Source: a virus
Direction: 5' to 3' (one strand)
Virus record (IMG/VR): IMGVR_UViG_3300013131_000153
Location: 1 to 31,540 of that record
Length of the DNA stretch: 31,540 bases
Below are positions 1,323 through 4,313 of this stretch, in pieces; the stretch's first letter is position 1; every line of letters starts with the position of its first letter. The position numbers and the translations under genes are program-made. A model generated the notes under the pieces. The model was given only the letters and a program-made list of their open reading frames with translations, had not been told where the DNA came from and made no database searches.

Positions 1323-2952
1323 GGCGCGCTATTACCAGAGCGAAGCGATCGACTCGATCTTCAAGTATTGGGAGAGATGCCCTGGGGACAACATCCTCGC
1401 AGAAATGGCGACTGGCACGGGCAAAGCCTTTGTCATCGCACAACTGATCCGCGAGATATTCCAGATCGCGCCGCGCGCGCGCATTATAATGCTCGTCCAC
1501 GTCCGCGAGCTTGTACGCCAGAACTTCGAGGAATTGTTGCGCTATTGGCCGGGCGCTCCTGTCGGTATCAATTCCGCCGGGCTTGGCCGCCGCGACACGC
1601 GCCCGCCGATCCTGTGCGCGTCCATTCAATCGGTCTTTCGCAAGCCCGAATTACTCGGCCCGCGCGATCTTGTGATCGTCGATGAAGCGCATCTTGTGCC
1701 CCAGGCCGGGGATGGCATGTATCGCAAGATGATCGAAGGATTGCGGGCGCTCGGCCCTATGCGCGTTGTCGGCTTTACCGCGACGCCGTTCCGCCTCGAC
1801 AGCGGACGGCTGGATCGCGGCAAGGATCGTCTCTTCGACCAAATCGTTTATCGCTATGGCATAGCTGAAGGGGTGCGCGATGGCTTTCTTTCTCCTTTGG
1901 TATCCAAAAGCGGGGCGACAGAAATTGACGTTTCAGGAGTTGCGCGCCGCGGCGGAGAATTTATCGCAGGCGCTCTCGAAAGCACCGCCGACGTGGACGC
2001 CATTACAAAGGCTGCAGTGGGCGAAATCATCGGGCATGGAAGCAATCGGCGGTCGTGGCTTGTGTTTTGTGCGGGCGTCAAGCACGCGCATCACGTCTGC
2101 GATGAATTCCGCCGGCAAGGAATATCCTGCGCCACAGTGACGGGCGAGACGCCGGCGCATGAACGAGACAGGATACTCGCTGATTTCAAGGCCGGGCGCA
2201 TTCGCTGCCTCACCAATATGTCGGTGCTGACGACGGGCTTCAATGCGCCGGGCGTCGATCTTGTCGCGATGCTGCGGCCGACGCTCTCGACCGGGCTATA
2301 TGTCCAGATGCTCGGCCGGGGAACCCGCATTGCGCCGAACAAGGCGAACTGTCTGGTCCTCGATTTCAGCGGCAACGTTCGCCGGCATGGGGCCGTGGAT
2401 GATCTGGAGATCGCAGAATCGTCCGAGAATGGAGGCGTGGAGAAGGTTGGCGCGGTTGCGATAACGGACATCAAGATGATCGCCTGCCCGCATTGCCGCG
2501 CCTACATTTCGCCGCGCGTGTCCGTCTGTCCTGAATGCAATGAGGTCGTGCGCGAGAAGCCGCCGCATGATCCGCACGCTGACGTTGTGGAGGTCATGTC
2601 GCACATCATGAAGGCAGACGGCTTTCGCACTGTTGACGCCATGACCTTCGCGATAAATGCCAGCAGCTTCGACAAGCCGAAAACGTTGCGCGTTGAGTAC
2701 CATTCCGGCCGGAAGGTGTTCAAGGAGTGGGTGTGCTTCGACCATCCCGAAAACTCGTTCCCGCGGCGCAAGGCGTCAACGTGGTGGATGGAAAGCGGTG
2801 GTCAAATGCCGCCGCCGGCATCGGTGGCGGAGGCTGTCAAGCGCACGGGAGAGCTGCGAACGGTCATCGGAATCAAAACACGCGATGAAAACGGCTTCGA
2901 GAAGGTATCGGCCCGCCGCTTCGATCCGCGTAGGAATGAGAGGGCGGCATGA
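1315..2952 (+). CDS. DEAD/DEAH-box SF2 DNA helicase
   Basis: This is a 545-residue superfamily 2 helicase. Motif I is MATGTGKAF, motif II VDEAH, motif III GFTATPFR, and motif VI QMLGRGTR, followed by a zinc-ribbon-like CPHC...CPEC pair near residue 390-405. The ATG at 1315 is preferred over an upstream TTG because AGAGGGCGAAGC places a good ribosome binding site in front of it and the family begins with a short xRxYQ motif (here ARYYQ). Motif I carries Ala where Ser or Thr normally follows the Walker Lys, which is unusual because that hydroxyl helps hold Mg-ATP. The gene overlaps its upstream neighbour by 8 bases and the methyltransferase by ATGA. It likely unwinds DNA or branched structures during phage replication or recombination. 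Confidence 0.9.
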   Translation: MFEARYYQSEAIDSIFKYWERCPGDNILAEMATGTGKAFVIAQLIREIFQIAPRARIIMLVHVRELVRQNFEELLRYWPGAPVGINSAGLGRRDTRPPILCASIQSVFRKPELLGPRDLVIVDEAHLVPQAGDGMYRKMIEGLRALGPMRVVGFTATPFRLDSGRLDRGKDRLFDQIVYRYGIAEGVRDGFLSPLVSKSGATEIDVSGVARRGGEFIAGALESTADVDAITKAAVGEIIGHGSNRRSWLVFCAGVKHAHHVCDEFRRQGISCATVTGETPAHERDRILADFKAGRIRCLTNMSVLTTGFNAPGVDLVAMLRPTLSTGLYVQMLGRGTRIAPNKANCLVLDFSGNVRRHGAVDDLEIAESSENGGVEKVGAVAITDIKMIACPHCRAYISPRVSVCPECNEVVREKPPHDPHADVVEVMSHIMKADGFRTVDAMTFAINASSFDKPKTLRVEYHSGRKVFKEWVCFDHPENSFPRRKASTWWMESGGQMPPPASVAEAVKRTGELRTVIGIKTRDENGFEKVSARRFDPRRNERAA

Positions 2953-4313
2953 CGGCGTTCTACAACGAAATTGAACCCTATGCCGCTGCGTGGCTGCGCA
3001 ACCTGATTGACACCGGACACATCGCGCCGGGGATCGTGGACGAAAGGGATATCCGTGACATACGACCAGATGAGCTTGCTAGATTTACCCAATGTCACTT
3101 CTTCGCCGGTATCGGCGTCTGGTCCTACGCTCTGCGACAAGCCGGATGGCCAGACGACCGCCCAATCTGGACCGGCTCCTGCCCGTGCCAGCCTTTCAGC
3201 GCGGCAGGCCGAGGCGATGGGGCTGCTGACGAGCGGCACCTATGGCCGCACTGGCACCATCTCATTGCAGAGTGCCGCCCTCCAATCGTCCTTGGCGAAC
3301 AAGTTGAAGCAGCGATCCGCCACGGATGGCTCGACCTTGTTCAAACTGACATGGAAGGAAGCGGTTACGCCTGCGGGGCGGTCGCTGCCCCTGCTGCGGG
3401 CTTCGGCGCTCCGCACATCCGAGCACGCCTGTACTTTGCCGCTCAACGGTTGGTCCAGCCCGGGAGCGCGAGACTGGAAGGACACAATCGGGATGGCGTC
3501 AACCGGCGTCAACCCGGATGGAACGGAAAGGTCGCGGCTGGATCAACTCGGCCGGCAGGTGGGACTGACAGCGTGGCCGGAGATTGGCGGCGAGTCGCCT
3601 TTGCTGCCGAGTGCGACCCTGACGGGGATGGGTGGTGTCAACTCCGAAACATCGACCCCGCAGAATGCGACTGCATCGGACCGACCGAAGATGGTGTTGA
3701 ATACCGCAAACTGGCCGGCGTCTTGTATGGGCGCAGGCTGGCCGACCCCACAGACGCAGGATGCGAGCGGGGGCGGTCAAGCCAAGCGTGCGATGGGAGA
3801 GGCTCGGCATGGGTCGAACCTGAACGACTTTGCGATGCTGGCTGGCTGGCCCTCCCCAACAGTCGGGAACGCGACGGGATCGCAGGCGGCGAAGGATGCG
3901 AGCGCAACGGGCAAGCGCCCGGACGGCAGCAAGGCGACTGTGAGTCTCAATGCAGTGGCGAAGATCGCGGGCTGGCCGACGCCGATGGCAGGAACGCCAG
4001 CGCGAAACGGCAACAGCGAAGCGGGGAACACGGACGCAAGCCGCAAGACGGTGGCGTTGTGCGGAGCGGAGATAGCGGGGCACGGCTTGACGTTGCCGCC
4101 GGATTGGGCCGGCCCGGCCCGGTTAACGGCTTCTGGCGAGATGCTGACTGGCTTTACTGCCGGGATGACAAATGGCGGCCAGTTGAACCCGGCATTGAGC
4201 CGCTGGCTCATGGGGCTCCCGCCCGAGTGGGACGCCTGCGCGCCTACGGCAATGCGATCTGCGCGCCGCAAGCAACAGCCTTCGTCGAGGCCGTGATGGA
4301 GTGCGCGGCATGA
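2949..4313 (+). CDS. dcm: C5-cytosine DNA methyltransferase
   Basis: This 454-residue protein is a cytosine-5 methyltransferase, transferring methyl from S-adenosylmethionine to C in DNA. Motif I is FFAGIG (residues 51-56), motif [11 protein letters not shown] with catalytic C80, motif VI is GEQV with E117, motif VIII resembles [11 protein letters not shown], and motif X is AYGNAI (about 432-437). Between motifs VIII and X lies a 230-residue region rich in Gly, Arg, Asp and Gln with LADP/LADA motifs. Its codon use is poorer than in the flanks and it coincides with the second reading frame described at 3055. ATG overlaps the helicase stop as ATGA, and its own stop overlaps the next ATG. It may protect phage DNA from restriction; no partner restriction enzyme is present in the window. 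Confidence 0.9.
3055..4296 (+). CDS. Overlapping +1-frame phage protein with WPTP repeats, function unknown
   Basis: A 413-residue frame lies entirely inside the methyltransferase gene, shifted by +1. I recognise the protein style as a recurring phage hypothetical family found with phage dcm genes: an N-terminal [11 protein letters not shown] region, [26 protein letters not shown], spaced AGWPTP or AGWPSP motifs (Trp at 229, 265, 307), and a C-terminal [18 protein letters not shown]. This recognition is memory, not a search result. The GTG at 3055 is chosen because AAAGGG lies six bases upstream; ATG 3070 and a TTG at 3007 are alternatives. In the central part this frame has the codon use typical of the phage (many CTG, GCG, ACG, CCG), better than the dcm frame there. 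Function is unknown. If it is not translated, the ORF is a by-product of the methyltransferase sequence. Confidence 0.65.

Follow-up and report, generated by a model that had tools for sequence, protein, structure and literature searches.

The small gene of M.EcoHK31I was reportedly found by Lee, Kam and Shaw in 1995 to lie inside the large one, in a different reading frame. M.EcoHK31I (YGGCCR) is a two-polypeptide C5-methyltransferase in which the large chain carries motifs I to VIII and X and the small chain carries motif IX, and its predicted target-recognition domain (TRD) was placed in the large chain, alpha (PMC3404938). In another split C5-methyltransferase, M.AquI, motifs I to VIII are found on one chain and the rest of the variable region, with motif IX, on the other (PMC3404938). 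In characterised C5-methyltransferases, motif IX and the target-recognition region both lie between motifs VIII and X (PMC3404938). A second frame within a phage methylase has been described for the ShiLan domain, an out-of-frame HNH gene that represents insertion of a mobile endonuclease (PMC11855218).

We analysed a stretch of 31,540 nucleotides from an IMG/VR virus record (IMGVR_UViG_3300013131_000153; hereafter the window), in which a gene pair on the plus strand has a phage DNA helicase gene upstream and a phage primase gene downstream. As an earlier note on this DNA had stated, two frames are open together over 1.24 kb: the dcm frame (positions 2949 to 4313), which encodes the 454-amino-acid (aa) protein alpha, and a +1 frame (open reading frame [ORF] 3007/3055 to 4296), whose 413-aa product, beta, runs from GTG 3055 to 4296. 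We estimate a probability of about 0.8 that this locus encodes, in the same DNA, the two subunits of a single phage-encoded orphan cytosine-5 DNA methyltransferase, with alpha as the catalytic chain and beta as the predicted target-recognition/motif IX subunit.

The phage pair resembles M.EcoHK31I in having motif IX on the smaller polypeptide and the remaining motifs on the larger one, and the nesting of a small gene in another frame matches that reported for M.EcoHK31I. The phage enzyme differs in being an orphan, with no adjacent restriction gene seen; in its beta chain of 413 aa, which has tandem WPTP modules and in which the TRD is predicted; and in its alpha chain, which has a long disordered linker and a motif II/III segment ahead of motif I. 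Since the TRD of M.EcoHK31I is predicted in alpha, a TRD in phage beta is an extrapolation. Motif X is on the small chain of M.AquI, whereas in the phage pair it is in alpha. The ShiLan domain likewise occupies a second frame in a phage methylase but is an endonuclease insertion and no methylase subunit. A single-chain counterpart is gp70 of Mycobacterium phage ShiLan, which shares the motif series and the PTP repeats and has its motif IX (LAPAFSEWMMGWPAGW) directly ahead of motif X; unlike the phage pair, it is encoded in one frame as one chain and has no N-terminal LTWK-type domain. The same nesting is already annotated as two overlapping methylase coding sequences in K1G (gp34/gp35), PhiXhv-28, and Leyra (gp61/gp62). 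Our literature search, outside which most subscription journals lay, found no explanation of these annotated nested sequences as a two-subunit enzyme, and a search among plasmids for a named M.EcoHK31I-like enzyme returned generic annotation only. Two-polypeptide C5-methyltransferases are known; what is new here is the breadth of the nested arrangement, the predicted TRD location, and the frame-displacement series described below.

Catalytic motifs and predicted linker of alpha

The dcm product matched PF00145 (8.8e-12) and phrog_363 (2.7e-83), and a profile match to M.HhaI was obtained (1e-16); its structural model matched M.HaeIII and M.HhaI in Foldseek (3e-8). Motifs I, IV (PCQ), VI, VIII, and X, which place alpha among the C5-methyltransferases, are all present. 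Motif I (3093 to 3122) is near-invariant in the alignment of dcm homologues, as is motif IV, PCQPFS (3183 to 3200), which contains the catalytic Cys80 and aligns with the PCQ of M.HhaI. Residues E117-Q118-V119 of motif VI, GEQV (3294 to 3305), are invariant, as are R158 and R160 of motif VIII, HIRARLYF (3414 to 3437), which also aligns with M.HhaI. Motif X (4224 to 4259) is near-invariant and gave a weak hhalign match to motif X of ShiLan gp70 (E value of 0.014). The PF00145 match and the near-invariant motif residues bear out the claim that the main C5-methyltransferase motifs lie at the two ends of dcm, and from the structural model we are confident that the catalytic part of alpha has the C5-methyltransferase fold.

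A motif II/III-like segment (...VDERDIRDI; 2955 to 3062) is located ahead of motif I. The resulting order II-III-I-IV (2955 to 3122) departs from the usual C5-methyltransferase motif order by a local permutation; when dcm was aligned to ShiLan gp70 with hhalign, the II/III-like segment was aligned and motif I was left over as an insertion.

The middle of dcm had been taken for the target-recognition region of the methyltransferase. Residues 183 to 399 are predicted to be disordered (pLDDT of ~35) and are little conserved, and neither structure prediction nor conservation revealed motif IX or a folded domain between motifs VIII and X of alpha. Single-chain C5-methyltransferases normally have both between those motifs, and the known two-chain members are without part of them. 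A folded target-recognition domain is therefore unlikely in the middle of dcm. On the structural model, the dcm middle looks like a linker; the predicted disordered linker, which is stop-free and contains LADA-type repeats, was mapped to residues 183 to 391 (3495 to 4121).

Retention of the overlap in related loci

Viral contigs were scanned twice, once with each protein, and 158 loci were obtained in addition to the window, falling into 115 clusters at 90% identity; the dcm-based scan involved no selection for a second frame. The two genes were in the +1 relation in 159/159 loci, including the window, and overlapped by a median of 348 codons. All 145 pairs from further loci, drawn from bacteria (one genome per species), extra viral contigs, and named phages, were also in +1. 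Neither beta without alpha nor alpha without beta was found among the 304 loci, and un-nested relatives were confined to the more distant single-chain and split enzymes. The laboratory phages N15 (gene 58) and K1G carry the nested pair, and phages HdK5, SAP012, and KLEP18-1 carry a distant, minimal pair in which the overlap is kept and beta has ~200 to 240 residues. When the HdK5 beta was used for a scan, no relatives turned up, and Ruegeria phage DSS3-P1 (L312) matched neither the alpha nor the beta profile. The record of Salmonella phage SAP012 (L306, 2501 to 3289) annotates neither gene, although each frame is open and matches its profile.

The beta frame is open for hundreds of codons throughout the 304 loci, with the exception of two damaged copies. 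A TAG lies within beta in L041. In L112 (2926 to 4185), a mid-gene frameshift links the N-terminal half of dcm to the C-terminal frame of beta, and this joined frame is either a real fusion or an assembly error. L108, a candidate broken beta, was dropped because its stops precede the conserved core. EBPR siphovirus 2 (L303, 2501 to 4993; JF412297) has a dcm homologue with an intein, identified by Hint and LAGLIDADG matches, at the catalytic Cys motif (SCP-CFPAG...HN-CQPFS). The intein splits beta codons upstream of the core, which is itself open and has a possible new ATG (3720) within the intein.

Both frames are coding and under selection

A spurious +1 ORF, open by chance through high G+C content and dcm amino-acid usage, was weighed against these data. 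For the window by itself, the probability that the +1 frame is open, given the dcm protein and its codon use, was 0.06, which is mildly surprising and leaves such an explanation some room. Across 114 nonredundant loci, the median probability, conditioned at each locus on its own dcm protein and codon use, was 0.008, and stops in the overlap numbered 0 per locus in +1, compared to 15.6 in +2 and 5 to 9 in the antisense frames. Third positions of dcm codons in the overlap are second positions of +1 codons; their entropy fell from 1.85 bits upstream of the beta start to 1.15 bits in the N-terminal overlap and 0.53 bits in the C-terminal overlap. Pro111 (CCT in 111/113 homologues) and Val119 (GTT in 111/112) are examples of near-invariant dcm codons. 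When dcm was synonymously resampled, the observed beta identity exceeded expectation in both the N-terminal overlap (0.52 versus 0.32; z = 111) and the C-terminal overlap (0.69 versus 0.34; z = 130); these z-scores ignore shared ancestry, and the internal control is the entropy drop relative to the nonoverlapping start of the same genes. The low median probability, together with the near-frozen silent sites, refutes a chance ORF, to which we assign a negligible probability, and the same nesting is found at 41 to 55% G+C in other phage groups.

The reverse test, in which beta was synonymously resampled, gave 0 dcm-frame stops in the middle versus 501 expected (113 loci); the alignment of the loci had both frames open, which means that the test gauges chance openness and not the frequency of loss. 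The lack of dcm-frame stops indicates that alpha is selected to remain free of stops between motifs VIII and X despite poor conservation. The earlier note had proposed that an overprinted pair is maintained and had pointed to homologues of both proteins and to synonymous-site constraint as the way to find out. The +1 overlap persisted in every one of the two sets of loci, dcm homologues had no frequent stops in the +1 frame, and the constraint on that frame exceeded that imposed by dcm. These data show that both frames are coding and under selection.

Initiation of beta

The +1 frame is open already from TTG 3007. The start with AAAGGG that had been ascribed to it corresponds to the 413-residue form, which begins at GTG 3055 and is shortly preceded by the Shine-Dalgarno-like AAAGGG (3043 to 3048). 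This sequence is formed by the Glu32-Arg33 codons of dcm. Arg33 is encoded by the rare codon AGG in 45/108 homologues, compared to 0/107 for Arg17 and 8.4% for all dcm Arg codons. With AGG at Arg33, the beta start is preceded by AGGAG or AGGG, which is what independent initiation would predict, and a candidate beta start codon is found 103 to 109 bases past the dcm start in 90/113 loci. On these sequence features, beta would be expected to initiate independently of dcm.

Programmed ribosomal frameshifting near motif VIII would instead produce a fused chain of motifs I to VIII, TRD, and motif IX, with no separate beta. Such a mechanism is consistent with the constant +1 relation, with the existence of single-chain and split relatives, and with the frameshift between the two frames in L112. 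We nevertheless consider it very unlikely: the protein-constrained, best-folded N-terminal domain of beta lies over alpha motifs VI to VIII and precedes any such shift, a Shine-Dalgarno sequence is embedded in Arg33, and the fused product would be without motif X. The EBPR siphovirus 2 intein also argues against frameshifting, as it breaks the upstream beta codons and the core resumes with a possible start of its own.

Beta as the predicted target-recognition subunit

Beta had no match in Pfam or NCBIfam but matched phrog_31772 (3.7e-44) and phrog_1008 (1e-28), both of which are labelled DNA methyltransferase. The AlphaFold2 model of the whole protein was of low confidence (pLDDT of 57, pTM of 0.29), and neither sequence-based nor fold-based searches of solved structures with beta returned a credible match. 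Residues 71 to 118 are confidently predicted to form a helix and two strands, with pLDDT values of 83 to 92 over residues 71 to 120, and the remainder is weakly structured. The predicted N-terminal domain (...LRASALRTS; 3256 to 3420), delimited by pLDDT and by the constraint in the N-terminal overlap, lies over alpha motifs VI to VIII.

The WPTP-module region (3442 to 4104) is predicted to contain target-recognition modules. Profiles of this mid-region matched the PTP repeats of Upyo gp53, Leyra gp62, and ShiLan gp70, a match that is repeat-biased. The number of WPTP modules per beta varies from 0 to 7 across loci, which suggests that recognition may be modular. Three GGCTGGCC-type copies, whose spacing by multiples of three had been noticed before, are present in the window at 3732 to 3749 (GWPTP in beta, LADP in alpha), 3840 to 3857 (GWPSP in beta), and 3966 to 3983 (GWPTP in beta, LADA in alpha), spaced by 108 and 126 nucleotides.

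A C-terminal, motif IX-like segment of 23 residues (4177 to 4245) aligned with residues 333 to 355 of ShiLan gp70 (hhalign E value of 2.5e-7, probability of 93%), which constitute motif IX, directly upstream of motif X, in that enzyme. Profile-profile alignment of beta to single-chain enzymes was significant only over this segment; profiles of the middle and C terminus of beta picked up single-chain methylases above shuffled and antisense controls. Since the beta C terminus aligns to motif IX, beta would represent the part between motifs VIII and X. The parts of alpha and beta follow the same DNA order as those of single-chain enzymes, and the frame alone differs. As the PTP modules and motif IX are at the target-recognition position of single-chain enzymes, target recognition is probably carried by beta rather than by the dcm middle. 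The proposal that the specificity region of the methyltransferase gave rise to the second gene, or was shaped by it, therefore has to be restated: the target-recognition/motif IX homologue is in beta itself, and the middle of dcm looks like a linker.

For the greater part of beta there is neither a solved fold nor a named Pfam domain, as might be expected if it were a regulatory or anti-restriction protein in its own right, sharing DNA with dcm without being a methyltransferase subunit. We regard this as unlikely given that the C terminus of beta shows homology to the motif IX of single-chain methylases, that alpha is without motif IX or a folded VIII-to-X domain, and that none of the 304 loci had beta without alpha.

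In the two-subunit enzyme that we favour, ribosomes starting at 2949 would produce alpha, with AdoMet binding, the catalytic PCQ, C-terminal motif X, and a floppy linker, and a second, independent initiation at GTG 3055 would produce beta from the +1 frame. Beta would supply the VIII-to-X part of single-chain relatives, which consists of motif IX preceded by (W/L)PTP modules in tandem, and its docking on alpha would complete the small domain and confer DNA specificity. From these comparisons we infer that the two chains associate physically, that the pair methylates DNA, and that the PTP modules recognize the target. The neighbouring genes examined included no restriction gene, and shielding of phage DNA from host restriction would therefore be the likely role.

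Single-chain, split, and nested relatives

Related loci fall into several architectures. ShiLan gp70 contains, in one chain, motifs I to VIII, LLPTP..D..GG repeats, LAPAFSEWMMGWPAGW, and motif X; 19 loci related to it are single-chain by the criterion used. In split, actinophage-type loci, motifs I to VIII are in one ORF and PTP repeats, IX, and X are in another, nearly always in +1. Gordonia phage Upyo (L315, 2306 to 3575) has motifs I to VIII in gp54 and PTP repeats, IX, and X in gp53 (+1), an M.AquI-like arrangement.

Nested pairs of Paenibacillus phage Leyra and its relatives are in +1 in 45/45 cases, at 41 to 69% G+C, with a median probability of openness of 0/300. A third nested group, from freshwater and marine phages (L365 to L390), comprises 26 loci in +1; beta has ~246 residues within an alpha of 252 to 297 residues, so that ~90% of the gene is dual-coding, and 0 stops were seen versus ~4.5 to 8 expected. 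Four loci of this group (L382 and L392 to L394) scored +2, with overlaps of just 32 to 47 codons that are apparently fragmentary. A few single-chain genes show weak +1 similarity to the LTWK domain of beta, which, judged from sequence, may be a shadow of the conserved motifs of alpha.

On the simplest account, the nested form could have originated by a frameshift that moved the recognition part of a single-chain gene to +1, a second shift that put motif X back in frame 0, and overprinting of the LTWK domain of beta on alpha motifs VI to VIII, an order of events that comes from an unrooted comparison. More broadly, and at slightly less than even odds, nested dual coding may be old and common in phage C5-methyltransferases, arising via frame displacement of the recognition part by compensating frameshifts and later overprinting of an N-terminal docking domain of beta on the catalytic motifs, with exchangeable WPTP recognition units whose number sets specificity. 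The single-chain, split, and nested forms would provide a natural series for the origin of overlapping genes by these two steps combined. To our knowledge, a same-strand overlap of ~400 codons in hundreds of phage and prophage loci, across several bacterial phyla, is among the longest and most widespread of prokaryotic dual-coding genes. Most annotations of nested loci list one gene of the two. If the two-subunit reading is true, the descriptions of many annotated phage cytosine methyltransferases cover just half of the enzyme, and clones of dcm only might therefore seem inactive.

One locus has an insertion in the dual-coding gene (L028, 3163 to 3800), with the dcm frame open as well. The insertion had no Pfam match; in the beta frame it is zinc-ribbon/HNH-like (CSDCG..CKVC..CEATGISFD..PSLDQMQANSGY) and recalls the out-of-frame HNH of the ShiLan domain.
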